DNA of 64,000 nucleotides from Oscillospiraceae bacterium (lineage in GTDB: Bacteria > Bacillota > Clostridia > Oscillospirales > Ruminococcaceae). How positions within the stretch are numbered: the stretch's first letter is position 1; every line of letters starts with the position of its first letter. The position numbers were made by a program, and so were the translations under genes. The stretch is from positions 23,109-87,108 of the forward strand of contig WRLK01000004.1 of assembly GCA_009777635.1 (NCBI GenBank), read 5' to 3'. Below, piece after piece: positions 4,353-61,963 of this stretch. The notes below the pieces were generated by a model that was not told the DNA's origin, did not search any database, and saw only the letters and a list, made by a program, of their open reading frames with translations.

Positions 4353-4390
4353 AAAAACAGGCTGAATACATTTAAGTATCCAGCCCGTGT
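4353..4390 (-). terminator. Rho-independent terminator downstream of pyk
   Basis: Reverse complement GGCTGGATACTTAAATGTATTCAGCC followed by TGTTTTTG. Confidence 0.65.
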
Positions 4391-4485
4391 GCGCAACACT
4401 TCCTTACAGCTTATAATTATTATAATATTTTTTATTACAAATTCAATTTACAAATTAAACAATTAATTTTATCACCGTTTGTTTA

Positions 4486-39389: not shown

Positions 39390-40721
39390 TTAGACAACTC
39401 CTTGCTGAAGCATCGCTTCAGCAACTTTCCGAAAGCCCGCGATATTGGCGCCCGCGACAAGATTTCCTTTCATGCCGTAGCGCTCCGCAGCCATAGAACA
39501 TTCGGTATATATATCGTGCATAATGCTCCTAAGCCTGCAATCGACTTCTTCAAACGCCCATGACATCCTTGAACTGTTTTGAGCCATTTCCAGCGCGGAA
39601 ACCGCCACTCCCCCCGCGTTTGCGGCTTTGCCGGGCGCGAAAAACACGCCGTTGTCCTGTAAATAATGCGTCGCTTCCAAATCCGTCGACATATTTGAGC
39701 CTTCGGCTACAGCCATACAGCCGTTCTTTACCAGCAGCTCGGCCCCGTTTTTTAGAAGCTCGTTTTGTGTGGCGCACGGAAGCGCAATATTGCAGGGGAC
39801 AGACCATACGAGCCCGTTTTCGACGTATTCCGCGGTTTTTTTGACCTTTAGATATTCGCTGATCCGTCCTCTTTGCACTTCTTTAATTTGCTTCACCGCA
39901 TCTAAATCTATACCGTCACCGTCGTATATATAGCCGTTCGAGTCGCTCATCGTAACGACCTTTGCGCCAAGCTTTACAGCCTTTTCAGCGGCGTAGATCG
40001 CGACGTTGCCGCTGCCGGAAATTACAACCGTCTTATCCTCGAACGTCGTATTTTTCGCGGCCAGCATATTTTCCATCATATAAACAAGCCCATAGCCCGT
40101 AGCTTCGGTGCGCACCAAAGACCCGCCGTATGTCAGGCTCTTACCGGTAAACGCCCCCTCATATTGCCCGGTCAGGCGTTTATACTGCCCGTACATAAAC
40201 CCGACCTCACGGCCCCCCACGCCGATGTCTCCGGCGGGGATATCCTGGTCGGCCCCTATATGCCGGTATAGCTCGTCGATAAAGCTCTGGCAGAACGCCA
40301 TGACTTCGCGGTCGGACTTGCCTTTTGAATCAAAATCCGACCCGCCCTTGCCGCCGCCTATTGGCAGTCCGGTTAATGAATTCTTGAAAATTTGCTCAAA
40401 AGCCAAAAATTTTATAATGCTCAAATTCACGCTCGGATGAAACCGCAGCCCGCCTTTATACGGGCCGATGGCGCTGCTGAACTGAACCCTGTAACCCCGG
40501 TTGATCCTTACTTTCCCCGAGTCGTCAACCCACGGCACCCTGAACATGACCTGTCTTTCCGGTTCGATCATGCGCTCTAATATCCCGGCCTTTTCGTACT
40601 TCGGATGTTCATCTAAAAAAGGCGTAAGCGAGGGAATTATTTCAGTCATAGCCTGATGGAATTCCGGCTCGTTCGGGTTTTTCTTTTTTGAATCATCTAA
40701 AATCCTCATTGCATAAGACAT
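39390..40721 (-). CDS. gdhA: Glutamate dehydrogenase
   Basis: VRINRGYRVQFSSAIGPYKGGLRFHPSVNLSIIKFLAFEQIFKNSLTGLPIGGGKGGSDFD; start 40721 with AAGGGAG RBS (track ORF starts at 40763). Confidence 0.96.
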   Translation of the reverse strand: MSYAMRILDDSKKKNPNEPEFHQAMTEIIPSLTPFLDEHPKYEKAGILERMIEPERQVMFRVPWVDDSGKVRINRGYRVQFSSAIGPYKGGLRFHPSVNLSIIKFLAFEQIFKNSLTGLPIGGGKGGSDFDSKGKSDREVMAFCQSFIDELYRHIGADQDIPAGDIGVGGREVGFMYGQYKRLTGQYEGAFTGKSLTYGGSLVRTEATGYGLVYMMENMLAAKNTTFEDKTVVISGSGNVAIYAAEKAVKLGAKVVTMSDSNGYIYDGDGIDLDAVKQIKEVQRGRISEYLKVKKTAEYVENGLVWSVPCNIALPCATQNELLKNGAELLVKNGCMAVAEGSNMSTDLEATHYLQDNGVFFAPGKAANAGGVAVSALEMAQNSSRMSWAFEEVDCRLRSIMHDIYTECSMAAERYGMKGNLVAGANIAGFRKVAEAMLQQGVV

Positions 40722-40741: not shown

Positions 40742-40796
40742 GAACAAAGGCGTTTATCGACAACTGATAAATCAGCTGTCGATAAACGCCTTTGTT
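40742..40796 (-). promoter_or_regulatory. gdhA leader hairpin (attenuator-like)
   Basis: Minus strand AACAAAGGCGTTTATCGACA-GCTGATTTATCAGT-TGTCGATAAACGCCTTTGTT followed by CCTTTT, directly downstream of a TTGACA-17-TATACT promoter. Confidence 0.7.
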
Positions 40797-40856
40797 TACC
40801 GGATATTAGTATAGCATGAAACCCGATAACTGTCAACTATCAATTTTTATTTTTTG

Positions 40857-40886
40857 CCGCTGTTAGCTTTATGTGAACAGGCCCTA
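40857..40886. mobile_element. Solo MITE terminus (copy E)
   Basis: Reverse complement TAGGGCCTGTTCACATAAAGCTAACAGC matches the first 28 nt of copy C at 25 positions. Confidence 0.55.
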
Positions 40887-42065
40887 ATCAAGCGCGGTTT
40901 TAAATCTCCGCATGGCTTCCGATATATTTTCACAGCTTCCAAAAGCGGTCAGCCTGAAGAACCCCTCGCCGTTTGACCCGAAGCCTGAACCGGGGGTTCC
41001 TGCGACATTCGCCCTTTCTAGAAGAAAATCGAAAAACTCCCACGAGAGCATATTATCGGGGCATTTGAGCCAGATATACGGAGAATTCCGCCCGCCTGCA
41101 AACCATATCCCAAGCTCTGTAAGTGCGTCGGCGATTATCCGCGCGTTTTCAAGGTAATATGCAATATCCCTTTTGATTTGCGACAGTCCCTCGCCTGTAA
41201 ATACGGCCTCGGCCCCGCGCTGGACGATATACGGCACACCGTTGAATTTTGTGCTTTGCCGCCTAAGCCAAAGCTTGTTAAGAGACGCGCCGCCGCGCTC
41301 AAGCTCACGCGGCACGACGGTATATCCGCATCTTGTGCCGGTAAAGCCCGCCGTCTTTGAAAGGGAACAAAATTCAACCGCACACTTTTTGGCGCCGTCT
41401 ATCTGATATATGCTCGACGGCAGTCCGCCGTCCTGAATAAACGCTTCATACGCGCCGTCAAAGAGGATTACGGCGTCGTTTTCCAAGGCATACTTCACCC
41501 ACTGCGAAAGCTGTTCTTTATTATACACGGCCCCTGTCGGATTATTGGGCGAACACAGGTATATGATATTCGCTTTTGTACCGGCGTTTGGCATCGGCAG
41601 GAAACAATTCTCCAGATTTCCGTCCATATACTCGATCCTGCGCCCCGCCATGATATTTGTATCCACATAGACAGGGTAAACCGGATCGGGAATCAAAACC
41701 GTGTTGTCCTCAGAAAAAATATCAAGGATATTGCCAAGGTCGCTTTTCGCGCCGTCGCTTATGAACACCTCGTCATCACTGAGCCGAACGCCCTTACCGG
41801 CATAATAGCCGCATACGGCCTGTCTTAAAAACAGATAGCCCTCGTAATCACCGTAGCCGTGGAAAGTATCGGCGGCTCCCATTTCCAAAACGGCTTTGCT
41901 CATAGCGGCAACAATCTTTGGCGCAAGCGGGATGGTTACATCGCCGACGCCAAGGCTTATAATTTCGTTGTTTGGGTTTTGCGCTTTATATTCCCGTATT
42001 TTTTGAGATACTTTGGCAAACAAATAGCTTTCCTTTAAATCGAAATAATTTTTATTGATATTCAT
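40884..42065 (-). CDS. dapL: LL-diaminopimelate aminotransferase
   Basis: 393 aa; MNINKNYFDLKESYLFAKVSQKIREYKAQNPNNEIISLGVGDVTIPLAP; YLCSPNNPTGAVY; SLSKTAGFTGTRCGYTVVP. Confidence 0.92.
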   Translation of the reverse strand: MNINKNYFDLKESYLFAKVSQKIREYKAQNPNNEIISLGVGDVTIPLAPKIVAAMSKAVLEMGAADTFHGYGDYEGYLFLRQAVCGYYAGKGVRLSDDEVFISDGAKSDLGNILDIFSEDNTVLIPDPVYPVYVDTNIMAGRRIEYMDGNLENCFLPMPNAGTKANIIYLCSPNNPTGAVYNKEQLSQWVKYALENDAVILFDGAYEAFIQDGGLPSSIYQIDGAKKCAVEFCSLSKTAGFTGTRCGYTVVPRELERGGASLNKLWLRRQSTKFNGVPYIVQRGAEAVFTGEGLSQIKRDIAYYLENARIIADALTELGIWFAGGRNSPYIWLKCPDNMLSWEFFDFLLERANVAGTPGSGFGSNGEGFFRLTAFGSCENISEAMRRFKTALD

Positions 42066-42868
42066 ATAGCCGCTTCCTTTCCGCGCCCGCTGGGCGGCCG
42101 CATGCTTATGCCGTTACCTAGCAGATAATCCTTGAGCTCCCGCACCGTGTAGTTTAGACTTAACCTCGGCGAATACAGCATACTGCTGATGATTGCCGCC
42201 TGTGCCTGTGTAACGGTGAACAGCTCTTTCAAATGCTCGGGCTTTCCCGCCCCGCCCGACGCTATCAGCGGGACCGACAGGCTTTTCTCCGCCAGCTTCA
42301 TCAGCGCAAGGTCGTACCCTGACAGCGCGCCGTCGTTGTCGATACTGTTAAGGCATATTTCCCCGGCGCCCAGCTCCTGCCCGCGCCGTATCCACTCGGC
42401 CGCGTCCATGCCTGTCGCAAGCCTCGCCCCGTCGATGTACACTTCATATCCGCTGGGCATCTTTCCCGTCCGTTTTACCTGCGTTGACAGCACGACACAT
42501 TGAGAGCCGAAAGCTTTGGCCCCCTCCGATATGATTTCAGGGTTCCTCACCGCCATTGAATCGACGCTGATTTTTTCGGCTCCCGCCTTCAGCGCCTCAT
42601 ACATATCGCCGAGGCTTTTGATTCCGCCGCCGACGGTAAAGGGTATGAATACTCGGCGGGCCACCTTTTTGACCGTCTCTATGTCGATGGCGCGCTTTTC
42701 GGCGCTTGCCGTGATGTCGTAGAAAATAAGCTCGTCGATTTGGGCGTCATACATCGTTTCGGCAAGCTCTTCGGCGGGCGCGACGTCTATGTTGTCCTGA
42801 AACCCCACCGCCTTAGTCACCCTGCCGTTTACAATATCAAAGCATGCGATCAGCCGTTTTGTCAGCAT
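42062..42868 (-). CDS. hisF: HisF-like cyclase (imidazole glycerol phosphate synthase subunit)
   Basis: LIACFDIVNGRVTK, FIPFTVGGGIKSLGD, GAGEICLNSIDNDGALSGYD, LIASGGAGKPEH. Confidence 0.85.
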   Translation of the reverse strand: MLTKRLIACFDIVNGRVTKAVGFQDNIDVAPAEELAETMYDAQIDELIFYDITASAEKRAIDIETVKKVARRVFIPFTVGGGIKSLGDMYEALKAGAEKISVDSMAVRNPEIISEGAKAFGSQCVVLSTQVKRTGKMPSGYEVYIDGARLATGMDAAEWIRRGQELGAGEICLNSIDNDGALSGYDLALMKLAEKSLSVPLIASGGAGKPEHLKELFTVTQAQAAIISSMLYSPRLSLNYTVRELKDYLLGNGISMRPPSGRGKEAAI

Positions 42869-43476
42869 TAAGAGCCGCCTCCTTTAAGGGCAAGGAATCC
42901 GCCAAACAGCGAAAGCCCCGCCTCCCCGCTCTTTTCGGCGTGAAACTGCGCGCCGTAGATGTTATCCCGGTTGACGGCGGCGGTAAACGCCCCGTCATAT
43001 TCAGCCTCTCCCCACAAATCCGACATGTCTTTAGGCTTCGCGTGATAGGAATTTACAAAGTAAAAGAAGTCGTCCTTTGCGTTGCAAGGGGCGTCTTTTA
43101 CAAACCGCACCTTGTTCCATCCAATCTGCGGCACCCTGACCCTTGACGCGTCGAATCTTACCACTTGACCTTTGAGCCATCCGAGGCAATCGGCGTTATC
43201 CTCCTCGCTTCTCTCAAAAAGAACCTGCAAGCCGACGCAAATGCCGAGAAACAAAGCTTTCCCGTTTAACACGGCTTCTTCAAGCACAGGTATCATATCC
43301 ATTTCACGCAGAGACTTCATCGTCGCCCCGGCGCTTCCGACGCCCGGCAGGATAATGTGCGTCGCGCCGTCTAAATCCCGCGGACAACGCGCGAAGACAG
43401 TCTCATACCCGAGGCGCCGGGCAGCGTGGCCGACGCTCGTGGCGTTACCGGCCTTGTAGTCGATTATAGCAATCAT
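42868..43476 (-). CDS. hisH: Imidazole glycerol phosphate synthase glutaminase subunit HisH
   Basis: [54 protein letters not shown]. Confidence 0.9.
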
Positions 43477-45083
43477 AACGAGACCTTCCGCCGAGCTAAA
43501 GCGGCATTTAACAGTCCTGTAAACAACGGATGCGGCTTATTGGGGCGGCTTTTAAACTCAGGATGGAACTGAACGCCGACGAAAAAGCTGTGTCCCGGAA
43601 GCTCGACCGCCTCGACAAGGCCGCCGTCCGGCGATGTACCACAGATAACAAGGCCTTTTTCCGTAAGCCGTTCGCGATAATCATTGTTAAATTCAAACCG
43701 GTGGCGGTGTCTCTCGCTTATTTCGTCCACGTCATATAAACGTCTTAATAGCGAGCCTTTTGCGATTCTGCACGGGTATGCGCCAAGACGCATAGTGCCG
43801 CCGCTGCCTACCATACCAGCTTGACCGGGCATTATGTCGATTACGCGATGGGGCGAGTTTTCCTGAAACTCGCCGGAGTGGGCGCCCTCGAGACCGCAGA
43901 CATGGCGGGCAAATTCAATCACCGCTATTTGCATGCCAAGGCAAATCCCCAAAAACGGTATGTCGTTTTTCCTTGCGACACGGCATGCGGCGATTTTCCC
44001 CTCGATGCCCCTATCGCCAAAGCCTCCGGGGATAATCATACCGTCAATCCCGCTCAATACTTCGCCGGCGTTGCCGCCTGTTATGGCTTCGCTGTCAATC
44101 CAGCTTATTTTTACTTTTGAGGATGTTTCATAGCCTGCGTGGTTTAAGCTCTCCATAATGGAAAGATACGCGTCATGAAGCTTTACATATTTCCCGACGA
44201 TGGCGATGTTGACTTCCTTTTTCCTTGCTGCGATCTTTTTCGTCATTACCCGCCATTCTTTCAGATCGGGCTTCGGCGTTTTAAGCTTAAGCTCGCGGCA
44301 AACCACCTTATCAAGGCCGTTTTGATGCAGCATAAGCGGCGCTTCGTACAAACACGGAAGGGTCATGTTCTCGATGACGCAGTCAGGCTTTACGTTGCAG
44401 AAAAGCGCAATCTTATCCTTGATGCCGTCGCTTATCGGCTCGTCGGCCCGCGCAATTATGATTGTCGGCGAAATGCCCATGGACCGCAGCTCCTTTACCG
44501 AATGCTGCGTGGGCTTTGACTTATGCTCACCCGAGCATTTAAGATACGGAATCAGCGTCACATGGATAAACAGGCAATCCTTTTTGCTTTTCTCGATCGA
44601 TATCTGGCGGATAGCCTCCAAAAACGGCTGGCTCTCGATGTCGCCGGTCGTACCTCCGATCTCGGTAATCAACACGTCGGCGCCGCTGTTTTCGGCCCCC
44701 GAGTAGATAAACGCCTTGATCTCCTGCGTTACATGGGGGATCACCTGAACCGTTCCCCCGAGATAGCCGCCCGCGCGTTCGCGCTGAAGCACACTGGAGT
44801 ACACCTTACCCGACGTAAGGTTTGAGAGCTTTGTCAGGTTTTCGTCAATAAACCGCTCGTAGTGCCCTAAGTCAAGGTCTGTTTCCGCGCCGTCGTCCGT
44901 GACGAACACCTCCCCGTGCTGGAACGGGCTCATGGTGCCGGGATCGATGTTCATATACGGGTCGAGCTTCTGCGCCGCGACTTTAAGCCCCCGCTGCTTG
45001 AGAAGCCTGCCTAAGCTCGCGGCGGTGATGCCTTTGCCGAGCCCCGATACAACTCCGCCCGTCACAAAAATATATTTCGTCAT
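43473..45083 (-). CDS. pyrG: CTP synthase
   Basis: [78 protein letters not shown]. Confidence 0.97.
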
Positions 45084-45143
45084 TATCGCTCCCCCCGATT
45101 AAATATTAGACCTCTTGCGAAAAAAATTGGCGATGCAATCTCT

Positions 45144-46646
45144 TCATTCCCACTCCACCGTCGCCGGAGGTTTTGAGGTAATATCATAGACAACGCGGCT
45201 GACCGCAGGTATCTCGCTTGTGATCCGCGACGATATGCGCCCTAAGACGCTGTTCGGCAGCGCAGCGTATTCGCATGTCATAAAATCGCCCGTCGTGACC
45301 GCGCGGACCGCGATAACGTAATCATATGTCCTGAAGTCACCTTTGACGCCGACAGAACGCGTGTCTGTCAGCACCGCGAAATATTGGTCCGGCTTTCGCT
45401 TCATCCTGCCGATTTCCTCGCGGAGCACAGCGTCGGCACTGCGCAGGATATCCAGCTTTTCGCCGGTAACCTCTCCCATTACGCGGATTGCAAGCCCCGG
45501 ACCCGGAAACGGCTGGCGGTTTACAAGTGATTTCGGAAGCCCCAGCTTCTTCCCGAGTGCGCGCACCTCATCCTTAAAGAGCCCTGCCAGCGGCTCGATG
45601 ACGCCGTCAAACGCAAGTATTTCCGGCAGCCCGCCCACATTGTGATGGCTTTTTATGGTGGCGCCGTGTCCTCCTCCGGACTCGACAATATCGGGATAGA
45701 TAGTCCCTTGCGCCAAAAAGGGCACGTCCCCGAGCTTTGCGGCTTCCTCCTCAAAAACGCGGATGAACGCTTCGCCGATTATCTTCCGCTTTGCTTCAGG
45801 ATCGGCAATACCTTTTAGCTTGGCAAGAAACCGCCTTTCCGCGTTCACGCGTATAAACCTTAGCTTCCGCTTTGAAAACACGCGCTCTATCTCATCGCCC
45901 TCACCCTGCCTCATGAAGCCGTGGTCGACAAAAATGCAGACGAGCTGCCCCGGTATGGCCTTTGACAGCAGAGCGGCGCATACCGACGAATCAACCCCGC
46001 CTGAAAGGGCAAGCAGCACGTTTTTGTCGCGGGCTTTCTCTTGTATGTCCGCGACTTGGGTATCTATGTAATCGTCGAGCCTGTAATCCTTCGCCGCGCC
46101 GCAGACGTTATGCAAAAAGCTTTCTATGATCCCGCGCCCACCCTCCGTATGCTTGCTTTCGGGGTGAAACTGCACGCCGTAAAGCTTCCTGCCTTTATCC
46201 TCGCAGGCCGCGATGCAAGAGCCGGTGCGCGCCGTCGCCGCAAAGCCGTCAGGCAGCCGCGTCACGGCGTCCATGTGGCTCATCAAGGCTAAAAACGGCT
46301 TTTGAGCGGAATCCTCGGGCGTCACTAAAACGCGCCCGTATTCTCCCGCCGCGCCGGGTGAGACTTCGCCGCCCAGCATATGGCACATCATCTGCATCCC
46401 GTAGCAAATACCAAGAATAGGGATGCCAAGCGCAAAGAGTTTTGAATCGCACCGCGGCGAGCCTGGAAGATACACGCTGTTCGGCCCGCCTGTCATGATG
46501 ATACCGGTCGGCGCTATCCTTCGGATTTCGTCGGCCGTGATATTGCCCGGCTTGATTTCCGAATACACCGACAGGCTCCTGACCATACCGGCGATCAATT
46601 CCTTATACTGGCCGCCGAAATCCAATACCAATATGGTTCCGCTCAT
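45144..46646 (-). CDS. guaA: GMP synthase (glutamine-hydrolysing)
   Basis: ILVLDFGGQYKELIAGMVR; GICYGMQMMCHMLGG; LALSGGVDSSVCAALLSKAI. Confidence 0.96.
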   Translation of the reverse strand: MSGTILVLDFGGQYKELIAGMVRSLSVYSEIKPGNITADEIRRIAPTGIIMTGGPNSVYLPGSPRCDSKLFALGIPILGICYGMQMMCHMLGGEVSPGAAGEYGRVLVTPEDSAQKPFLALMSHMDAVTRLPDGFAATARTGSCIAACEDKGRKLYGVQFHPESKHTEGGRGIIESFLHNVCGAAKDYRLDDYIDTQVADIQEKARDKNVLLALSGGVDSSVCAALLSKAIPGQLVCIFVDHGFMRQGEGDEIERVFSKRKLRFIRVNAERRFLAKLKGIADPEAKRKIIGEAFIRVFEEEAAKLGDVPFLAQGTIYPDIVESGGGHGATIKSHHNVGGLPEILAFDGVIEPLAGLFKDEVRALGKKLGLPKSLVNRQPFPGPGLAIRVMGEVTGEKLDILRSADAVLREEIGRMKRKPDQYFAVLTDTRSVGVKGDFRTYDYVIAVRAVTTGDFMTCEYAALPNSVLGRISSRITSEIPAVSRVVYDITSKPPATVEWE

Positions 46647-49600
46647 ATCTCAACGACGCCTTCATAGACCTTTTTGCACTCGCCCGTCATAAAGACGGCC
46701 TCATCGGTATACCTGACGATCAGGTGTCCGCCGAGAAGCTGCACCTTGACGTCCTCGCCCTTGCCGCAATGCCCGTTTAAAACGGCGGCAACGACCGCGG
46801 CGCAGGAGCCGGTGCCGCAAGCGCGGGTCTCGCCGCTGCCGCGTTCCCATACGCGCATCTTCAAATGCTTTCGGTCAACGACCTCCACAAACTCGGCGTT
46901 TACCCTGTCGGGGAACAGCGGGCTGTATTCAAACAGCGGCCCGACACCTTTGACGTCGAATTTGTCCACGCTATCGACAAAAACTACGGCGTGCGGGTTG
47001 CCCATAGAAACGCATGTGATATCGTATTGAACGCCGCCTATCGTCACAGTCCTTGCGGTCACGCTGTCGCCCTCGAGGTCCACGGGGATCTTCCCGGGCC
47101 TAAGCTCGGCGGGCCCCATGTTCACCTTAACGGACATAACTTTCCCATTTTGCGTTGACAAGTGCATTTCCTTTACACCGCTTTTTGTTTCGATCATCAT
47201 ATGCCGTTTTGGCACCATTTTGTTGTCATAAAGATATTTCGCCACGCATCGGATGGCGTTTCCGCACATATTGCCCTCAGAGCCGTCGAGATTGAACATC
47301 CTCATTCTGGCATCGGAGATTTCCGAGCGCAGAATCAGCACCACGCCGTCGCCGCCCACGCCCGTATGCCGGTCTGCCAGAAACACTGACAGCGATTCGG
47401 GCGAATTTATTTCAAGGTCAAAGCAGTTGATGTAGATATAGTCGTTGCCGCAGCTTTGCATTTTCGTGAAGGGAAGCTGTATCCGGCTGTCCCTTAGGTT
47501 ATTGATGTCCACAAGCTCGGTATTGATCTCGCTGTATCCCGAAAGCAGGCTGTCCGCAAGGGCGTTTGCCGTATCTATGGACGTTAGGCACGGGATACCG
47601 AGAGTGCAGGCCTTCCTCCGGATTCTGACGCCGTCGAAAGCAGGGTCCCTGCCCTTTTCGGAGGTGCAGATGACGTAGTTCACCTTACCGCTTGCCAAAA
47701 GCGTTTCGGTATTGCTGTCCTTGCATTCGCGGATTTTTTCAACTGTCTGTACATTAAAGCCCTTCCCCTCAAGGAACCGTGCGGTTCCGTGCGTCGCGTA
47801 CAGTGAAAATCCGCATTGCGTCAGCTTTTTCGCGATCTCGGCGATCTCCGCCTTGTCGCCGTCCCGAACGGTAATCAATACGCCGCCATGCTTTTTCATC
47901 GAATATCCCGCCGCGATAAGGCCCTTATAAAGCGCCTCCTCAATGTTCTTTCCGATTCCCAGCACTTCACCCGTGGATTTCATTTCAGGCCCTAAATGGG
48001 TATCAACCCCCGTCAGCTTCTCAAATGAGAAGACAGGGACCTTGACCGCGTAATAGGGAGGTATTTTCGCAACGCCCGAGGAATACCCGAGTTCTAAAAG
48101 CGTTTTGCCGACGCTTAGCTTAGTGGCAAGCTCGCACATCGGAATGCCGGTAATCTTGCTGATATACGGAACGGTTCTCGACGCGCGCGGATTGACCTCG
48201 ATGACATAGATATCGTTTTCATATAGTACATACTGGATGTTTACAAGTCCCTTTACGTCTAAGGCCATGCAAAGGCTTTTGGTTACCTCAAAAATCTTCT
48301 CGGCAAGCTCGTCGTCCGTGTGGATCGCCGGATACGCCGCGATACTGTCGCCCGAATGAACGCCGGTGCGCTCGACATGCTCCATAATACCGGGGATCAG
48401 TATGTCACAACCGTCGCAAATTGCGTCGACCTCAATCTCGCGGCCCTCAAGGTATTTGTCGATCAGCACCGGGTTTTCCTGTTCCTGGCGCATGATTATC
48501 TCGATGTATTCGCTGATGTCCTCCGGCGAAAACGCGATGACCATGTTCTGTCCGCCCAGCACATATGACGGGCGCATCAGTACCGGGTAGCCGAGCTTTT
48601 CAGCGGCCGAAAGGGCCTCGGCTTCGCTCATGACTCCGAATCCTTTCGGGCGCTTGATGTTAAGCCTTTCCAGCAGCGTGTCAAACCGCTCCCTGTCCTC
48701 GCAAATATCGATGCTGTCGGCACAGGTCCCAATGATGTTCACACCGCGCTCATGCAGCTTTTTCGTCAGCTTGATGGCCGTGCCGCCGCCAAATGCCACG
48801 ATAACGCCCACCGGCTGCTCGATCTCAATAACGCTCATCACGTCGTCGATACATAACGGCTCGAAGTACAGCCTGTCGGCCGTATCAAAGTCCGTTGACA
48901 CCGTTTCAGGGTTATTGTTTATAACAACGACCTCATAACCCATTTCTTTTAGCGTCCACACGCAATGAACGCAGGCGTAGTCGAACTCTATGCCCTGCCC
49001 GATCCGTATCGGGCCGCTTCCCAAAACGACGACTCTTTGTTTTTCGCTTTTCTGGATGAACGGAAGCGCCTCGTTTTCCGCCCCGTTTATGGTGGAATAA
49101 AAGTATGGGGTCTTCGCTTCAAATTCCGCCGCACAGGTATCGACCATCTTATAAGCCAACCGACAACTGTTCGCGGACGGTTGACGGCTTGCTATATTCT
49201 CAAGCCCGTGTAAAAACCAGCGATCCACTTTTGTTGTCATGTAAATATCATCTATCGCGATTCCGCGCTTGATCGCTTCGTACAGCACAAACAGCCGCTC
49301 GTCGGTCACGGTATCGAGAAGCGAGCGTATCTCATCGTCGGTTTTAAGCGACACGCGCGGATGGTCAAGATGATAAAGGCCAAGCTCCGCGCCTCGCACC
49401 GCCTTTAAAAGCGCATCCTCAAACGTATCGGCTATCGCCATGACCTCGCCTGTCGCTTTCATTTGCGTTCCCAGCGCTTTATTTGCGTAAACAAATTTAT
49501 CAAACGGCCACTTTGGGAACTTCACAGCCACATAGTCGAGCACCGGCTCAAAAGCGGCGTAGGTAGTACCCGTGACGGCGTTTGTTATCTCGTCAAGGGT

Positions 49601-50587
49601 GTAGCCGATGGCAATCTTGGTAGCCACCTTTGCAATGGGGTAGCCCGTCGCCTTGCTGGCAAGCGCTGACGAGCGCGACACGCGCGGATTGACCTCGATA
49701 ACGGCATATTCAAAGCTGTCGGGGTGCAGGGCAAGCTGGACGTTGCAACCGCCCTCGACGCCCAGCGCCCTGATGATATCCAAGGAAGCCGAGCGCAGCA
49801 TCTGGTACTCCCTGTCGGCCAAGGTGACTGCGGGCGCTATGACGATGCTGTCCCCCGTATGCACGCCTACAGGGTCGAAGTTTTCCATTGAGCAGACGAT
49901 GATTGCGTTGTCGGCGCGGTCGCGCATGACTTCAAATTCGATCTCTTTCCAGCCGGCGATGGATTTCTCAATCAATATCTGGCCTATTGGCGACAATTGG
50001 ATGCCGCCGCCTGCGATCTTGCGCAAATCGGCTTCGTCGGCGGCAATACCGCCGCCCGCGCCTCCCAGAGTGAACGCCGGGCGTATGATTACCGGATACC
50101 CGATCTTATCTGCAAATTCGACCGCCGTTTCAACGTCGGTGGCTATGACCGACGGAACGCACGGCTGCCCGATTGAGAGCATGGTTTCCTTAAAGATTTG
50201 CCTGTCCTCAGCTTTGTCGATCGTCTTTGGCGAGGAGCCCAAAAGCCGCACGCCCATCTTCTCTAAAAAGCCTTCCTTGGCAAGCTGCATACAACGCGTC
50301 AAGCCGGTCTGCCCGCCTAAGCTCGACAAAATACTGTCGGGGCGCTCCTTCTCAATGATGCGTTTAATCGTTGTCAGCGTCAGCGGCTCAATATAGATTT
50401 TATCGGCAATGTTTTCGTCGGTCATAATTGTCGCGGGATTGGAATTGACAAGCACAATCTCAATATTGTCTTCGCGAAGAACGCGGCATGCCTGTGTACC
50501 TGCGTAGTCAAACTCCGCCGCTTGTCCTATGACAATCGGCCCGGAGCCGATAACCATTACTTTCTTGATATTCCTATCAAGTGGCAT
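46643..50587 (-). CDS. carB-dapF: Carbamoyl-phosphate synthase large subunit fused to C-terminal diaminopimelate epimerase
   Basis: Single uninterrupted frame: CarB (KKVMVIGSGPIVIGQAAEFDYAGTQACRVLRE ... MGS-like domain) then FTKMQSCGNDYIYINC...NLDGSEGNMCGNAIRC...GETRACGTGSCAAV (DapF with both Cys). Start at 50587 after GAGGAG (track ORF starts at 50596). Confidence 0.93.
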   Translation of the reverse strand: MPLDRNIKKVMVIGSGPIVIGQAAEFDYAGTQACRVLREDNIEIVLVNSNPATIMTDENIADKIYIEPLTLTTIKRIIEKERPDSILSSLGGQTGLTRCMQLAKEGFLEKMGVRLLGSSPKTIDKAEDRQIFKETMLSIGQPCVPSVIATDVETAVEFADKIGYPVIIRPAFTLGGAGGGIAADEADLRKIAGGGIQLSPIGQILIEKSIAGWKEIEFEVMRDRADNAIIVCSMENFDPVGVHTGDSIVIAPAVTLADREYQMLRSASLDIIRALGVEGGCNVQLALHPDSFEYAVIEVNPRVSRSSALASKATGYPIAKVATKIAIGYTLDEITNAVTGTTYAAFEPVLDYVAVKFPKWPFDKFVYANKALGTQMKATGEVMAIADTFEDALLKAVRGAELGLYHLDHPRVSLKTDDEIRSLLDTVTDERLFVLYEAIKRGIAIDDIYMTTKVDRWFLHGLENIASRQPSANSCRLAYKMVDTCAAEFEAKTPYFYSTINGAENEALPFIQKSEKQRVVVLGSGPIRIGQGIEFDYACVHCVWTLKEMGYEVVVINNNPETVSTDFDTADRLYFEPLCIDDVMSVIEIEQPVGVIVAFGGGTAIKLTKKLHERGVNIIGTCADSIDICEDRERFDTLLERLNIKRPKGFGVMSEAEALSAAEKLGYPVLMRPSYVLGGQNMVIAFSPEDISEYIEIIMRQEQENPVLIDKYLEGREIEVDAICDGCDILIPGIMEHVERTGVHSGDSIAAYPAIHTDDELAEKIFEVTKSLCMALDVKGLVNIQYVLYENDIYVIEVNPRASRTVPYISKITGIPMCELATKLSVGKTLLELGYSSGVAKIPPYYAVKVPVFSFEKLTGVDTHLGPEMKSTGEVLGIGKNIEEALYKGLIAAGYSMKKHGGVLITVRDGDKAEIAEIAKKLTQCGFSLYATHGTARFLEGKGFNVQTVEKIRECKDSNTETLLASGKVNYVICTSEKGRDPAFDGVRIRRKACTLGIPCLTSIDTANALADSLLSGYSEINTELVDINNLRDSRIQLPFTKMQSCGNDYIYINCFDLEINSPESLSVFLADRHTGVGGDGVVLILRSEISDARMRMFNLDGSEGNMCGNAIRCVAKYLYDNKMVPKRHMMIETKSGVKEMHLSTQNGKVMSVKVNMGPAELRPGKIPVDLEGDSVTARTVTIGGVQYDITCVSMGNPHAVVFVDSVDKFDVKGVGPLFEYSPLFPDRVNAEFVEVVDRKHLKMRVWERGSGETRACGTGSCAAVVAAVLNGHCGKGEDVKVQLLGGHLIVRYTDEAVFMTGECKKVYEGVVEI

Positions 50588-50602
50588 ATACTTCACTCCT
50601 CA

Positions 50603-50763
50603 GGGTCTGTTGACATAAAGCTAACAGCCCATATTTTCGGCGGGTTTTGCACCTTCCTGCGTCATCGTCGGTCGGAATACAAAAAGTATTCCTCCGTCCT
50701 CTTCCTTGAAATACACGAAAACCCACTCGAAAATCTGTGCATTCCATTTATGTCAACAGACCC
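50603..50763. mobile_element. MITE-like imperfect palindrome (copy C, 161 bp) between carA and carB
   Basis: GGGTCTGTTGACATAAA ... TTTATGTCAACAGACCC; right flank TA, left flank CA. Confidence 0.72.
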
Positions 50764-50775
50764 TAGAAAATTTCT

Positions 50776-51828
50776 TTATCGGGCCGCCGCCGCTTTAATG
50801 TTTTTTACAAACCGGTCGTACAGAAACACCGTGTCAAGCGGACCGCTGCGCGCCTCGGGATGAAACTGCACGGAAAAAGAGCCGCCGTAGTCAAGCCCTT
50901 CGCATGTGCCGTCGTTTACGTTCATAAAGGAGCTGTCGTCGGCGACCACCGCGTAACCGTGGTTCTGGCTTGTAATATATATGCGTCCCGTCTGTAAATC
51001 CTTGACCGGCTGGTTCGCCCCCCGGTGGCCGAATTTGAGCTTTTTAGTCTTGTATCCTTTTGCCCGCGCTAACAATTGATGCCCGAGGCATGTGCCGAAA
51101 ATCGGCACCCCTGCCTTTATCAGCTCGCGGATCTCCTCAACGATTCCGTCGTTCGCGGGGTCCGCGGGATCGCCGGGGCCGTTCGACAGCATAATTCCGT
51201 GAGGTTTTGTTTTTAAAATTTCATCGGCAGGCGTGTCGTGCGGGAAGCTTAATACTTCACAATCCCGCGCTTTAAGCGCCTCAGATATAGCGCGCTTTGC
51301 GCCGAAATCCATCATCGCCACGCGAAATGAGCCGTCGCTTAGCTTCTCAACCGCACTTGATGAAACGGCGGCGACGGAGCCCTTGACGGAATAGCCCCTT
51401 ACTTCGTCAAGGTCGGCGTCCGTCGGTTGCGATACGGTGATTTTTCCGTTCATTACTCCATTTTCGCGAATCATTTTTGTAAGCGCGCGCGTATCGATAC
51501 CGCAAAGCCCGATAATACCGCGTTCTTTCAGGAAAGCGTCGAGGTCTGCCGTGCTTCTGAAGTTTGAGGGATGCTTGCACGGATGCTTTACGATGTACGC
51601 TTTCGCCGCAACGGACGAGCTTTCAAAATCAGATGGGATCACGCCGTAATTGCCGATGAGCGGGAAAGTCTGAAGGACTATCTGCCCGTAATGGCTTGGG
51701 TCGGTCAATGTTTCCAGGTAGCCGGTCATCCCGGTGGTAAAAACTATCTCCCCCGTGACGCCGCCATAAGCGCCGAATGGCACTCCCTCAAAGACCGTGC
51801 CGTTTTCAAGTATTAGGTATGCGGTCAT
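50776..51828 (-). CDS. carA: Carbamoyl-phosphate synthase small subunit
   Basis: MTAYLILENGTVFEGVPFGAYGGVTGEIVFTTGMTGYLETLTDPS; GTCLGHQLLA. Confidence 0.96.
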   Translation of the reverse strand: MTAYLILENGTVFEGVPFGAYGGVTGEIVFTTGMTGYLETLTDPSHYGQIVLQTFPLIGNYGVIPSDFESSSVAAKAYIVKHPCKHPSNFRSTADLDAFLKERGIIGLCGIDTRALTKMIRENGVMNGKITVSQPTDADLDEVRGYSVKGSVAAVSSSAVEKLSDGSFRVAMMDFGAKRAISEALKARDCEVLSFPHDTPADEILKTKPHGIMLSNGPGDPADPANDGIVEEIRELIKAGVPIFGTCLGHQLLARAKGYKTKKLKFGHRGANQPVKDLQTGRIYITSQNHGYAVVADDSSFMNVNDGTCEGLDYGGSFSVQFHPEARSGPLDTVFLYDRFVKNIKAAAAR

Positions 51829-51928
51829 TTTTTAAAGTACTCCTCTCAAAAACATCCTTTTCTCTCGCGCCGCTGGGCCGTCTCCGGCAAAACATGCTGT
51901 GCAGAAAGGCAACGCGCTTTCTGTAGCT

Positions 51929-52498
51929 TTAAGTCTCATAAGTTTTTAGTATCCCCTCGGCGACCTCCCTTTTCGTAAAACGCATATCCATCGCCTGTTT
52001 TTCGATAAAGCGGTGGGCTTCCTTTTCGCCCATATTCATATAGGATATCAACAGGCATTTCGCTCGGTCCACAATGCGTATATCCTCGATTTTTTGTTTC
52101 AGCTTTGCATTTTCGGCCTGAGCCCGCCGCAACCTACTTTGCGCAGCCCCTGCCAATTTCAGCGCCGACCAAAAAACGGCTTTGTTTACCGGCTTTGAGA
52201 TTGTCAGAACGCCGTCGTCCTCGCAAATGGCGGACACCGCGTCAAAGTATTCGCTCTTTACCACCAGTATGACTTGTAAAGCCCCATTTAAGGCGACTTG
52301 GCGGGAAAAGCTTTCCCCTGACTCGTCACGAAGCGGCGCGTTAATAATCATTAAATCGAAATCGCGTTCTAAAAGAAGCCTTCGCGCCTCGCCGCAGGAC
52401 CGTATGGCTGCGATTTGATGAAAGCCTGCCGCGTTTAGCAGCTCGGTAAGGGTCTCCGTCCCTTTTTCCGAACATGAGACAATCAGTACGCTGTCCAT
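51929..52498 (-). CDS. Response-regulator-like protein with C-terminal ANTAR RNA-binding domain
   Basis: 189 aa; C-terminus KIEDIRIVDRAKCLLISYMNMGEKEAHRFIEKQAMDMRFTKREVAEGIL is ANTAR-like; downstream of glnA. Confidence 0.88.
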   Translation of the reverse strand: MDSVLIVSCSEKGTETLTELLNAAGFHQIAAIRSCGEARRLLLERDFDLMIINAPLRDESGESFSRQVALNGALQVILVVKSEYFDAVSAICEDDGVLTISKPVNKAVFWSALKLAGAAQSRLRRAQAENAKLKQKIEDIRIVDRAKCLLISYMNMGEKEAHRFIEKQAMDMRFTKREVAEGILKTYET

Positions 52499-52527
52499 CC
52501 CATCGCCCCCTCCTATCAGCTGACATT

Positions 52528-52545
52528 TAGAAGCTGTTCACATAG
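52528..52545. mobile_element. Solo MITE terminus (copy F, weak)
   Basis: TA|GAAGCTGTTCACATAG versus TA|GGGTCTGTTCACATGAG (copy D). Confidence 0.3.
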
Positions 52546-52587
52546 CTCAAAACACCGTTACCGCGGCGATTTTCTCGCCATAATGGG

Positions 52588-53910
52588 TTAATAATTATGG
52601 AAGTAGCGTTCCTTATAAAAGGCTGTCTTATCTTTTGCCGCGTGAAAATCCGCGGCCTCGGCTTTTTTAATTGTAAGATACTTTAACATCAGCTCCCCGC
52701 CAATCACGGTTTTTATAAATTCGCTTGCTTCGGCAAGCCTGATTGCCGAATCCAAGCTGTCCGGCAGCGTCGCTAAGTCTTTTGTGACGCTTTTGTCCGC
52801 GGTGTATAAGTCGGCGTCAACAGCGGGCGGCAGAGCAAGACCGTTTTCGATCCCGTCAAGTCCCGCCGAAAGAATCAGGGCAAACGCGAGATAAGGGTTG
52901 AGCGACGGGTCGGGCGAGCGCAATTCAATCCTGACTTTTTCGCCGGACGCGGCTGGGATTCTTATGAGCTGCGAGCGGTTTTGGTGCGACCATGACACAT
53001 ATTTGGGAGCTTCATACGCGCCAAAGCGCTCGTATGAATTTGCAAGCGGATTGAGAAACAGCGTCATTTCAGGAGCTTTTGAGAGGATACCCGCCAAAAA
53101 GCTTTCCGCAGTATCCGAGTGCTCGCCGCTGTCCGCGTTTTTGAAAATGTTGCACCCTTTATGCGTGAGCGATAGGTTTACATGAAGGCCGTTTCCTGCC
53201 AAGTCCGGTATCGGCTTCGGCATAAACGACGCGAACAGGCCTCCGCGCGCGGCAATCGCCTTGACGACCGATTTGAACGTCAAAAAGTTATCGGCGCAGC
53301 TAAGGGCGTTTGAGAATCTGAAGTCTATCTCGTTTTGACCCGGACCGCGTTCATGGTGCGAAGTTTCCGGCATTATGCCCATTTCCTCAAGCGTCAGGCA
53401 TATTTCGCGGCGTATATCCTCGCCCTTGTCAAGGGGCGAGACGTCAAGATACCCGCCCTTGTCGAGCGTTATATCGGTCGCCTCGCCGTCGTCGCCGGTC
53501 TTAAACAGATAAAACTCGCATTCCGCGCCAACCTTGCAGGCGTAACCCATTTTTTCGTATCTTTCGGCTACTTGCCTTAACAGAAACCTGCCGTCATGCA
53601 AAAACACCGAGCCGTCCGGAGTCTTAATGTCGCAGTAAAAGCGCGCGACCCTGCCGGGCCCCGGCCTCCAGGGCAGCACCGAGAGCGTGGCGGGGTCCGG
53701 GAACAGGAACAGGTCGGACGCTGTCACATCGCGAAAGCCGCGTATCGCGCCCGCGTCAAAGGACACCCCGCTTTCAAACGCGGACTGAAGCTCATCCGAC
53801 ATAATGGAAATATTCTTTTGAAATCCCAAAAGATCGCAAAAGCTAAGCCGTATAAACTTAACGTCATTCTCCCTTACGAATTCCAATACCTCGCTAGCGG
53901 TAGTGTTCAT
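52588..53910 (-). CDS. glnA: Glutamine synthetase type I
   Basis: 440 aa; VKFIRLSFCDLLGFQKNISIM, GRVARFYCDIKTPDGS, NEIDFRF, GNGLHVNLSL. Confidence 0.95.
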   Translation of the reverse strand: MNTTASEVLEFVRENDVKFIRLSFCDLLGFQKNISIMSDELQSAFESGVSFDAGAIRGFRDVTASDLFLFPDPATLSVLPWRPGPGRVARFYCDIKTPDGSVFLHDGRFLLRQVAERYEKMGYACKVGAECEFYLFKTGDDGEATDITLDKGGYLDVSPLDKGEDIRREICLTLEEMGIMPETSHHERGPGQNEIDFRFSNALSCADNFLTFKSVVKAIAARGGLFASFMPKPIPDLAGNGLHVNLSLTHKGCNIFKNADSGEHSDTAESFLAGILSKAPEMTLFLNPLANSYERFGAYEAPKYVSWSHQNRSQLIRIPAASGEKVRIELRSPDPSLNPYLAFALILSAGLDGIENGLALPPAVDADLYTADKSVTKDLATLPDSLDSAIRLAEASEFIKTVIGGELMLKYLTIKKAEAADFHAAKDKTAFYKERYFHNY

Positions 53911-53924
53911 GCGGATTTCTCCTC

Positions 53925-55742
53925 CTATTCTACGGTCACGCTTTTTGCCAGATTGCGCGGCTTATCTATGTCAAGACCCTTGTTTGCCGCCACATAATAG
54001 CTCAATAGCTGCATAACTATCACGGACAGCGACGGCGAAAGCAATTCGGGAACCTCCGGCAAGCCGATACAAGATATTATACCATCAGGATGGACGTCCT
54101 GACAAGAACCAATCATAAGCACCTTGGCTCCGCGGCTTGCCACCTGCTCTATGTTGCTCATAATCTTCCCGCGCAACCTCCCGCAGCCCGATATCGCAAC
54201 GACCAGGGTATTCTCCTCCACAAGCGCGATTGCGCCGTGTTTCAGCTCGCCGCCCGCATACGCCTCCGAGTGCACGTAGGATATCTCCTTGAGCTTGAGG
54301 GAGCCCTCAAGCGCGATTGCGTAATCGATATTTCTGCCGATAAAAAAAATATTTTTATATCCGACGCATGTTGACGCGTATTTCTGGATTGAATCGACAT
54401 TCTTTAGAACCTGCGCCGCCTTATCGGGCAGGGCCGCAATTTCCGCCAGCAGCTCCTGCTCAGATTCGCGCGAAATCCTGCTAAGCTTTGCGGCAAACCT
54501 GACCGCCAGTATATACAAAAGCACAAGCTGCGCCGAAAATGCTTTTGTCGTCGCAACTGCGATCTCCGGCCCCGCCGCCGTAAACAGGCAGGAGTCCGAT
54601 TCCTTTGCGATTGTGCTTCCCACAACATTGACAATGGCAAGGGTTTTTGCGCCCTTTGCCTTCGCTTCCCGCATGGCCGCGATCGTATCGGCGGTCTCGC
54701 CGGACTGGCTAATTAAAATAACAAGCGTTTTCTCATCGACAACGGCGTCCTTATACCTGAATTCGCTTGCAAGCTCCACTTCGACGGAAATCCTGCAAAT
54801 CCGCTCGAATACATATCTTGCCACAACGCCCGCGTTATACGCCGAGCCGCAGGCCGTGATTACGAGCTTATCAATACTTGTGACGTCAATGCTTTCGATC
54901 GGCTCTTTGTTGTCTCCCTTAATAGATTGCACAGTATCTCTTAGCACCCTTGGCTGCTCCATGATTTCCTTGAGCATGAAATGCTCATACCCGCCCTTTT
55001 CGGCGCTGTCGACGCTCCATGTCACGGTTTCAAGCGTCTTTTGGACAGGTTCCTTATCCATATTAAAAAACCGCACCCCGTCCTTTGTGAGTGCCGCGAT
55101 TTCATTGTCGCTTAAGTAATAAACCTTGTTTGTGTATTTAAGTACGGCAGGCACGTCGGACGCGATAAACTGCCCGTGTTCGCAAACACCGATAATCAGG
55201 GGATTGTCTTTCTTGACGGCGATAAGCGTATCGGGATCGTCAGCGCACATGATTCCGAGAGCGAAGGAGCCTTCCAGCGCCCTTGTCACCCGTATGACGG
55301 TATCGAGCAAATCGTCGCCCCGATATTTTTGTGCGTAGTATTCGGCAAGCTGCGCTATCGCCTCACTGTCGGTCTTAGAGGAAAACTCTATCCCCTTTGG
55401 CACAAGCCGCTCTTTTATATCCTTATAGTTTTCAATGATGCCGTTGTGGACGACGGCGATTTTATTCCGGCTTCCCAAATGGGGATGGGAGTTTTCGTCC
55501 GACGGCTCCCCGTGTGTCGCCCAGCGTGTATGACCGATGCCCATACGGCTTTTGAGCGGCTGATCCTTTAGCCTTTCCTCAAGCGCCGCAAGACGGCCCT
55601 TTTGCTTGACTACGCCGAAGCCGTCCTCTACGCAAACCGCGATCCCCGCCGAATCGTACCCGCGGTATTCAAGTTTTTTCAGTCCTTCGATAATGATGGG
55701 GACAGCGTTTTCCTCTCCCACATAGCCGATAATTCCGCACAT
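53925..55742 (-). CDS. glmS: Glutamine--fructose-6-phosphate aminotransferase (isomerising)
   Basis: MCGIIGYVGEENAVPIIIEGLKKLEYRGYDSAGIAV; MGIGHTRWATHGEPSDENSHPH. Confidence 0.97.
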   Translation of the reverse strand: MCGIIGYVGEENAVPIIIEGLKKLEYRGYDSAGIAVCVEDGFGVVKQKGRLAALEERLKDQPLKSRMGIGHTRWATHGEPSDENSHPHLGSRNKIAVVHNGIIENYKDIKERLVPKGIEFSSKTDSEAIAQLAEYYAQKYRGDDLLDTVIRVTRALEGSFALGIMCADDPDTLIAVKKDNPLIIGVCEHGQFIASDVPAVLKYTNKVYYLSDNEIAALTKDGVRFFNMDKEPVQKTLETVTWSVDSAEKGGYEHFMLKEIMEQPRVLRDTVQSIKGDNKEPIESIDVTSIDKLVITACGSAYNAGVVARYVFERICRISVEVELASEFRYKDAVVDEKTLVILISQSGETADTIAAMREAKAKGAKTLAIVNVVGSTIAKESDSCLFTAAGPEIAVATTKAFSAQLVLLYILAVRFAAKLSRISRESEQELLAEIAALPDKAAQVLKNVDSIQKYASTCVGYKNIFFIGRNIDYAIALEGSLKLKEISYVHSEAYAGGELKHGAIALVEENTLVVAISGCGRLRGKIMSNIEQVASRGAKVLMIGSCQDVHPDGIISCIGLPEVPELLSPSLSVIVMQLLSYYVAANKGLDIDKPRNLAKSVTVE

Positions 55743-55763
55743 AATCACAATGCCTCCTGTCGT

Positions 55764-56486
55764 TTAGTTCGCTGTATACAATTGCTTATACGGGTTTCTC
55801 GCGTTCGGCCTTAAAAGCATAAACCTGTCTTTCATAATTTTCCGGACGTCAATGCCGAAGTATCCGGCGAATTTTGTGATGTACGGCTCAATTTCGCTCA
55901 AATCACCGGCGACCGCCGCCGTCACCTGCGCCGGTAAGTTAACGAGCTCCTTTTCCGTCCTGATGTAGATCGTTCCGCCGTGCATGCCGGTTCCCGTGAA
56001 GTTTCCCACGGGTACGTCCTTTGAGCCGATGCCAAGCACCACAATCAGGCCGCCTGCAAGATATTCGCCCAAAAAGCTGCCCACCTCGCCGCCTATGATG
56101 ATTACCGGCTTTTTATCCTTGTATTCCTTCATATGTATCCCGGTCCTGTAGCCGGCGTTTCCCTTTACATAGATATTCCCGCCGCGCATGGCGTAGCCCA
56201 GCGCGTCGCCCGCGCTGCCGTCTATGATAATTTCCCCGTCGTTCATCGTGTCGCCGACGGCGTCCTGCGCGTTGCCGTTGACCCTGATTACCGCCCCGTC
56301 AAGATAAGCGCCAAGTGCGTTGCCGGGCGTGCCGTTTATGGTAATTGTTTTGCCTTTCGCGCCGCTTCCGATAAACCTCTGGCCGTAACAATCGTCTATA
56401 CCGACGTCGCCTTTGGCTAACCTCACGCGCTCGTTTAACTCTTTGAAGCCAAGATTTGCAGCCGATATGTTCACCTTAACCATCAC
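55764..56486 (-). CDS. Glutamate synthase GXGXG domain subunit (GltB3-type)
   Basis: 240 aa; GDALGYAMRGGNIYVKGNAGYRTGIHMKEYKDKKPVIIIGGEVGSFLGEYLAGGLIVVLG. Confidence 0.9.
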   Translation of the reverse strand: MMVKVNISAANLGFKELNERVRLAKGDVGIDDCYGQRFIGSGAKGKTITINGTPGNALGAYLDGAVIRVNGNAQDAVGDTMNDGEIIIDGSAGDALGYAMRGGNIYVKGNAGYRTGIHMKEYKDKKPVIIIGGEVGSFLGEYLAGGLIVVLGIGSKDVPVGNFTGTGMHGGTIYIRTEKELVNLPAQVTAAVAGDLSEIEPYITKFAGYFGIDVRKIMKDRFMLLRPNARNPYKQLYTAN

Positions 56487-57751
56487 TCCAATACGATGTA
56501 CTCATCCCGCCCCGCCCCGACGGACACGTATTTTATCGGGCAGCCTACGGCGTCCTCAATAAAGCGGATATACCTTATCGCCGCGTCAGGCAATTCATCC
56601 GGCTTGCGGCATTTCGATATATCCGTCTTAAATCCGTCTAAGTATTCATAAACGGGCTTTGCCCTTAAAAGCCTGTCGCCAAAAGGAAAGCGATCGGTTT
56701 TCACCCCGTCTGTCTCATACTCGACACAGACGGGAATTTTGTCCATATAGGAAAGCACGTCCAGTTTCGTCAGCGCGAGCTCATCCGCCCCCTGAACCTG
56801 TATACCGTACCGGCTTGCCGGAACGTCAAATCCGCCGACGCGCCGCTTCCTGCCGGTGGCGGCGCCGTACTCCGATCCGGCTTCACGCAGCTCATCGGCT
56901 TTTGCTCCAAACATTTCCACGGTAAACGGCCCTTCGCCCACGCAGCTTGAATATGCTTTCATAACGCCGATCACGCGGTCAAGCTTCATTCCCGGTATCC
57001 CCGCGCCGCAAGTTGCGTAGGAAGCCAAAGTCTGCGATGACGTCGTGTACGGATAAATGCCGTATTCGATGTCCCTGAGCGCTCCGAGCTGCGCCTCAAA
57101 GAGAATGTCTTTCCCTGACAAAACAGCTTTAGAAAGGTATTCCGACGTGTCGGCGATATACGGGCAAAGCCGCTTGCCGTATTCATGAAGCCAGCGCATC
57201 GTATCCGTTAATTCGGCTTTTCCGCCGTAGCCCGTAAGGGTGAGATTTTTCCATTCAATTATATCGGAAAGCTTTTGTTTCAGCGTCCTAAAATCAAGCA
57301 GATCGCCCATGCGCAGGCCCTTTTTGAGATACTTGTCGCCGTATACCGGCGCGATTCCGCGCCTGGTGGAGCCATACCGCTTATCGCTGAGGCGCTCCTC
57401 CTCCAGGATATCCTGTGTTTTGTGGTAAGGCATACAGATAAAGGCTTTGTCGCTTATTTTCAGATTCTCAGGCGTAACTTTTACGCCTTTTTCCCAAAGC
57501 GTATCGATTTCGCCGCACAGATGCTCCAAATCGACGACCATGCCGCAGCCCATGACATTTACGACGCCGTCGCGCAAAATTCCTGACGGCATCAGGTTTA
57601 AGATAAACTTCCCCCTGTCGTTGATGACCGTATGCCCCGCGTTGTTGCCGCCCTGATACCGGCAGATTACGCCGTACCCCTCCGACAGCAGGTCGACCAT
57701 GCGGCCTTTGCCCTCATCTCCCCAGTTTATGCCGACTATCGCTGTAAGCAT
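56483..57751 (-). CDS. purA: Adenylosuccinate synthetase
   Basis: MLTAIVGINWGDEGKGRMVDLLSEGYGVICRYQGGNNAGHTV. Confidence 0.95.
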   Translation of the reverse strand: MLTAIVGINWGDEGKGRMVDLLSEGYGVICRYQGGNNAGHTVINDRGKFILNLMPSGILRDGVVNVMGCGMVVDLEHLCGEIDTLWEKGVKVTPENLKISDKAFICMPYHKTQDILEEERLSDKRYGSTRRGIAPVYGDKYLKKGLRMGDLLDFRTLKQKLSDIIEWKNLTLTGYGGKAELTDTMRWLHEYGKRLCPYIADTSEYLSKAVLSGKDILFEAQLGALRDIEYGIYPYTTSSQTLASYATCGAGIPGMKLDRVIGVMKAYSSCVGEGPFTVEMFGAKADELREAGSEYGAATGRKRRVGGFDVPASRYGIQVQGADELALTKLDVLSYMDKIPVCVEYETDGVKTDRFPFGDRLLRAKPVYEYLDGFKTDISKCRKPDELPDAAIRYIRFIEDAVGCPIKYVSVGAGRDEYIVLE

Positions 57752-57766
57752 ATCACATTTGCCTCC

Positions 57767-59194: not shown

Positions 59195-59214
59195 TTTTTG
59201 TCCTCCTAAAGGGT

Positions 59215-61835: not shown

Positions 61836-61917
61836 CATATAAAGGCGTTCATCACATGATGTACGGGGCGGACAATCCTGCCGGCACCTGACACCATCTG
61901 ATGAACGCCTTTGTTCA
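61836..61917 (-). promoter_or_regulatory. gltB1 leader RNA hairpin (attenuator-like)
   Basis: Minus strand AACAAAGGCGTTCATCA-(41 nt)-TGATGAACGCCTTT after TTGACT-17-TATAAT promoter. Confidence 0.65.
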
Positions 61918-61963
61918 ACGATGATATTATACATGAATACCATCAGAAAGTCAATAAAAAATT

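Follow-up and report, generated by a model that had tools for sequence, protein, structure and literature searches.

The leaders of gdhA and gltB1 in the stretch of DNA analysed here (64,000 nucleotides in all, referred to as the window) carry a common RNA element, which, judging from its sequence, is quite probably a one-hexaloop ANTAR attenuator, dedicated to glutamate and glutamine genes and placed where the transcript begins. Its main feature is P1, a putative antiterminator hairpin made of the first 18 nt of the leader (UGAAC[AAAGGC]GUUCA), which was overlooked in the preliminary description of this DNA. What we computed are both structures of the element, their covariation, its position, its gene targets and its co-occurrence with ANTAR proteins.

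Both leaders begin at near-consensus promoters, each with a strong hairpin directly on its 3' side (Table 1). The TTGACA-17-TATACT promoter that had been described as directly preceding the gdhA hairpin was found at 40836-40808. The start codon of gdhA is the ATG at 40721, and the start of gltB1 at 61811 was picked for its place 3' of an AGGAGG within the leader. The same-strand run after gltB1 consists of gltB2, purB, purA, the gltB GXGXG subunit gene, glmS, glnA, the ANTAR gene, carA and carB-dapF, followed by guaA, pyrG, hisH, hisF and an aminotransferase gene that ends at 40884; the names rest on Pfam for part of these genes and on sequence knowledge and similarity for the others. The run from gltB1 to the aminotransferase gene appears to be one co-transcribed unit, a gltB operon with the ANTAR gene inside, and many of its genes have products that make or use glutamine. 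Next comes gdhA, under its separate promoter. The carB gene (46643-50596, minus strand) encodes a 1317-aa fusion in which the large chain of carbamoyl-phosphate synthase extends to about residue 1005 and a C-terminal diaminopimelate epimerase occupies residues ~1087-1310. A second, short DapF-like open reading frame (38814-39359, minus strand, 181 aa, PF01678 at 41.5 bits) is apparently an incomplete paralogue.

Table 1. Coordinates of the leader elements, promoters and genes discussed in the text
Feature	Position	Strand	Evidence or remark
gdhA P1, GUAAAC[AAAGGC]GUUUAU, putative ANTAR-binding antiterminator; hexaloop 40788-40793	40782..40799	-	nascent-prefix fold, covariation
gltB1 P1, UUGAAC[AAAGGC]GUUCAU; hexaloop 61907-61912	61901..61918	-	covariation, nascent-prefix fold
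gdhA leader, long terminator-like hairpin, 25 pairs, tail toward 40735	40743..40796	-	fold
gltB1 leader, long hairpin, weak U tract	61841..61912	-	fold, pair count
gdhA promoter, TTGACA-17-TATACT	40808..40836	-	consensus matches 11/12
gltB1 promoter, TTGACT-17-TATAAT	61926..61954	-	consensus matches 11/12
gdhA, glutamate dehydrogenase	39390..40721	-	PF00208 299 bits, PF02812 174.7 bits
gltB1, glutamate synthase class-II amidotransferase subunit	60711..61811	-	PF00310
glnA, glutamine synthetase	52588..53910	-	PF00120 355 bits; upstream neighbour of the ANTAR gene
ANTAR protein with pseudo-receiver, candidate reader of the element	51929..52498	-	PF03861 55.1 bits, PF00072 30.4 bits
Remaining same-strand run after the gltB1 leader	40884..60720	-	ORFs and Pfam

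The hairpins that the preliminary description had reported in the two leaders are real. The gdhA hairpin is near-perfect, with a minimum free energy of -40.5 kcal/mol compared with a mean of -8.6 for 200 dinucleotide shuffles (z = -13.4), and a simple terminator scan scored it as terminator-like. The extent of the gltB1 hairpin (-42.9 kcal/mol, z = -6.4) had been quoted too short: it is about 72 nt long, with 14 outer pairs, one G.G mismatch and then an inner stem, and the same scan gave no terminator call for it. On re-reading, both of the pair differences between the two stems (T-A/C-G and G-C/A-T) hold, and pairing is preserved at each. Across the elements, 13 of the 20 pairs of the long hairpin have changed in both strands, and pairing holds in 95.7% of the cells; controls with slid partners gave 38-54% and no shuffle reached the observed level.

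We infer that the long hairpin would act as a transcription terminator. Its tail is U-rich, with a median of 9 T in 12 positions across 169 elements, compared with 5-8 T in 12 in the own genome, where the hairpin may only pause the polymerase or act partly. These weaker own-genome U tracts, together with the gltB1 hairpin that received no terminator call, the position at the 5' end and the very high stability, would also suit a hairpin that mainly protects the mRNA as a 5' stem or serves as a pause site, at least in this genome. We regard that function as improbable, given the long U-rich tail directly 3' of the stem in the relatives; moreover, a protective stem alone leaves the conserved hexaloop and the compensated P1 stem unexplained. 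The inverted repeat could also be read as a DNA operator, bound by a transcription factor just past the promoter, and its mostly fixed place after the -10 box, conserved arm sequence and nitrogen regulon agree with such a role. In the own genome, however, 6 of the 20 pairs vary among the four full-length hairpins besides gdhA and every one of them varies to G-U, which keeps pairing in RNA and breaks the DNA palindrome. The gap between the arms ranges from ~0 to >60 nt, the distance to the promoter also varies (up to ~30 nt), and compensated changes occur in both structures, all of which make an operator very improbable.

In the long hairpin, the P1 loop together with the 3' strand of P1 serves as the 5' arm. 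We analysed P1 in 169 distinct elements, a set that leaves out the match in G605 (L306), which is without P1 and resembles an ordinary terminator. The P1 stem has 4-8 bp with a closing C-G pair and a hexaloop AANGGC. Its four core pairs are present in 169/169 elements, so that no element has a stem shorter than 3 bp. The closing C-G pair is likewise invariant (169/169), the adjacent pair is A-U or G-U, and in the hexaloop A1 is found in 168/169 elements and A2 and G4 in 169/169 each, with position 3 freely variable. At columns 3/16 all eight G-to-A changes (8/8) are paired with C-to-T (p = 7e-14); columns 4/15 show exchanges of A-T to G-C. Since the terminator does not include columns 1-6 and the covariance model treated them as unpaired, the P1 pairs constitute independent evidence. 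The window's own gdhA leader belongs to the compensated cases, with concerted changes in the 5' strand of P1, in the middle strand and in the 3' arm. As a side observation, a UAAAC/GUUUA (or GUUUG) variant of P1 is common to the gdhA leaders of three genera (L264, L273 and the window, 40782-40799), as if it were specific to gdhA; a similar variant also precedes argG (L278) and a PucR-type regulator gene (L279).

A consensus-like promoter accompanies 161 of the 169 elements, and P1 most often starts 6-9 nt past the -10 box, i.e., at about +1. In folding of nascent prefixes, P1 is within the minimum free energy structure of some prefix in every element (169/169) and typically persists as the prefix grows until ~15 nt before the element ends. 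The median energies of the two structures are -35 kcal/mol for the long hairpin and -4.3 kcal/mol for P1. Because columns 1-3 read NTG in most elements, the segment could also be taken for a leaderless leader peptide (ATG AAC AAA GGC GTT CAT) through which ribosomes would control attenuation. About 30 of the 169 elements, however, have a base other than T in column 2, in some cases with a matching change opposite in P1; stop codons occur there (TAG in L242 and L270), and P1 pairing accounts for the column pattern. We therefore give the peptide hardly any credence.

As a mechanism for the attenuator, we propose that the first 18 nt would fold into P1 while the leader emerges. If P1 is left unheld, the later 3' arm would capture its loop and 3' strand into the far stronger hairpin, which ends in the U-rich tract, and transcription would stop. 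Binding of an ANTAR protein to the P1 hexaloop through A1 and G4 would instead keep P1 in place and block the terminator, so that the glutamate and glutamine genes would be transcribed. The ANTAR protein from the same gene cluster probably holds the switch open. The signal would be nitrogen or glutamine status; as Asn stands in place of the acceptor Asp, it would be sensed by a route other than classical phosphorylation of the receiver.

To follow the element beyond the window, we combined a pattern search with covariance models. In the own genome it occupies five places, three of them beyond gdhA and gltB1: before a second gltB1-gltB2-purC operon, before a purC-purF operon, and before an operon for ferredoxin, NAD-oxidoreductase and ammonium transporter-PII. 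The second gltB1-gltB2 pair (L032 428-3835, own genome C15) is complete, is followed by purC and has its own copy of the leader, with a promoter that is unusually distant, ~30 nt upstream. The first covariance model, R1, was built without gdhA because MAFFT had misaligned the gdhA 3' arm in alignment A1. It located the element in 37/149 genomes of the family, almost always before gltB1, purC, purA, glnA, carA or pyrG. A second model, built from 34 elements, found it in 69/149 family genomes at E<=0.01 and, at E<=1e-4, in 78/295 sampled genomes of the order, 70/391 of the class (Clostridia) and 18/399 of the phylum. A pattern scan of named genomes gave at least 118 stretches in Ruminococcaceae, Oscillospiraceae and other Clostridia, including Clostridium methylpentosum, Merdimmobilis hominis and Pseudoflavonifractor phocaeensis. 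The stem is thus conserved in relatives, and the absence of conservation that would have spoken against the preliminary description did not arise.

Glutamine-making enzymes and glutamine amidotransferases dominate the target set. Of 206 elements, 143 precede gltB1 and 14 glnA, with smaller numbers before purA, purB, purC, carA, carB, pyrG and gdhA. Inspection by eye added full-length gltB (glutamate synthase), asnB (asparagine synthase), nadE (NAD synthetase), a PEP-synthase-like gene and a TAXI-type receptor, and weaker matches lie before glmS, guaA, purF, argG, gdhA in two other genera and the PucR-type regulator gene. This distribution of copies refutes a scattered palindromic repeat or mobile element, a reading suggested by the several copies per genome and now exceedingly improbable: at E<=1 the own genome contains just the five places and one weak match, and in many genera the copies recur at the equivalent point of the leader, upstream of the same genes and not at unrelated loci. 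Searches with a single arm, exact or with one mismatch, hit the genome at 50-odd places, most of which are not hairpins, and the two exact matches examined fall within coding sequence. Class-wide conservation, leader position, nitrogen genes and covarying pairs together support the earlier proposal that the two leaders share a cis-acting RNA that would work as an attenuator.

The preliminary description had also named the ANTAR protein encoded between the two leaders as a possible reader. Its ANTAR domain (PF03861) scores 55.1 bits against a Pfam cut-off of 27.3, which places it in the family. Three equivalents of the RNA-contact residues of EutV, Lys149, Glu160 and Met172, are kept, and two differ (Tyr164 to His, Arg168 to Glu). 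With Asn in place of the phospho-acceptor Asp, the receiver is not of the phospho-activated EutV type; this Asn is found in 25/27 members of the lineage and in 16/20 ANTAR proteins from element-positive genomes of the class. A subfamily defined by Asn53-x-Pro-Leu and His162 is present in 15/20 sampled genomes with the element compared with 2/20 without it. A few element-positive genomes (L362 and L368, from G606 and G586) have another type of ANTAR protein, in which the receiver Asp is retained. Across the class, 67/70 genomes with the element have an ANTAR gene compared with 129/321 without (Fisher 1.8e-19, uncorrected for phylogeny), and in the family the figures are 64/69 and 46/80 (also uncorrected for phylogeny). 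In 31 of the 45 genomes for which both positions were listed, no more than 20 kb separates the ANTAR gene from an element. No ANTAR match was obtained in five family and three class genomes that have the element, some of which are incomplete.

These few genomes, the unaided formation of P1 in nascent RNA and the two loops required in published ANTAR antitermination would be compatible with the same RNA switch being read by something other than an ANTAR protein, be it a small molecule, a different RNA-binding protein or transcription speed. We consider another reader unlikely in view of the A1/G4 hexaloop with the right closing pairs and of the co-occurrence, synteny and matching subfamily of the ANTAR proteins; for a small molecule, the conserved unpaired part amounts to six loop bases, which is small for a ligand pocket. 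Co-occurrence, synteny, the overlap of the A1/G4 hexaloop with the terminator and the ANTAR subfamily that tracks the element all favour the ANTAR protein as candidate reader, and we infer that it would bind P1.

Known ANTAR targets carry an A1/G4 hexaloop on a short stem overlapping a terminator, and EutV requires a specific sequence of the closing A-U and C-G pairs and two hexaloops at a set distance for antitermination (Ramesh et al., 2012, PMC3369931). The present element resembles the EutV/eut, NasR/nasF and AmiR/amiE leaders of that study in its short stem, six-nt A1/G4 loop and C-G/A-U closing pairs, and also in terminator overlap, nitrogen targets including glutamate synthase, and an ANTAR gene in the genome. 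By sequence its hairpin overlaps, and would exclude, a putative intrinsic terminator, more weakly so in the own genome. In contrast to the two hexaloops of those leaders, it has one, at ~+1, with no room for an upstream recruitment hairpin, and the dual-hairpin search model was not designed to detect such a one-loop element. We searched up- and downstream for a second A1/G4 hexaloop and found none conserved and no enrichment over other loop signatures; since P1 starts at ~+1, most leaders have no space upstream for one. The element thus does not have the two hairpins joined by a short linker that define the dual-hairpin motif and is ANTAR-like in the other respects tested, so we file it as a new ANTAR-leader variant and not as a member of that motif. 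Four loci (L200, L214, L220 and L286) have a second strong hairpin after the terminator, UUUCAGC[AUAGAU]GCUGAAA or a near variant, whose A1/G4 hexaloop is possibly a lineage-specific extra ANTAR loop.

That EutV antitermination requires two hexaloops, with only one conserved here, counts against our main reading. In structural work, the ANTAR dimer was found to engage hexaloops singly, and sites with a single hexaloop were allowed for, with both loops still required for eutP antitermination (PMC8934654). The single-hexaloop motif of that work shares with the present element the one loop as binding unit; unlike eutP, these leaders would represent attenuators that naturally work with one loop, a single hexaloop being enough for antitermination. 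An ANTAR gene in the clostridial GOGAT cluster, as seen here, has been described before and suggested to encode an ammonia-sensitive antiterminator, with C. acetobutylicum nitR and C. thermocellum Clo1313_2030 (regulation of glnA and GOGAT) as cases (PMC4676874). The role of the ANTAR protein in this cluster is therefore an earlier suggestion, and the RNA element itself is apparently new. Neither that paper nor the other literature searched (subscription journals and supplements lay outside the search) gave an account of this RNA or of its hexaloop, regulon or spread through the class. Rfam contains cis-regulatory families that are likewise leader RNAs before metabolic operons, and none matches the element above its gathering score; over the window, only a tRNA and an ssnA RNA did so, and at a permissive threshold only spurious microRNA or sRNA matches below the gathering score were added. 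The ssnA cis-regulatory RNA (RF03031, 53.7 bits) lies at 4372-4419 on the minus strand.

To our knowledge, little is understood of how many gut and rumen Clostridia control the assimilation of ammonia and the use of glutamine. More tentatively, we can envisage that one-hexaloop ANTAR attenuators at +1 govern a global glutamine regulon across Clostridia, in which the pseudo-receiver would respond directly, with no phosphorylation step, to a nitrogen metabolite or to a partner such as PII, and a single switch would coordinate most of the enzymes that make and use glutamine. The degenerate receiver hints at a different signalling route to the ANTAR domain. One hexaloop is structurally the binding unit of ANTAR proteins and yet two are needed for antitermination, a tension that natural one-loop leaders would make testable. 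If our reading is true, the element would provide a simple RNA handle and a candidate regulator for a regulon that spans the class.
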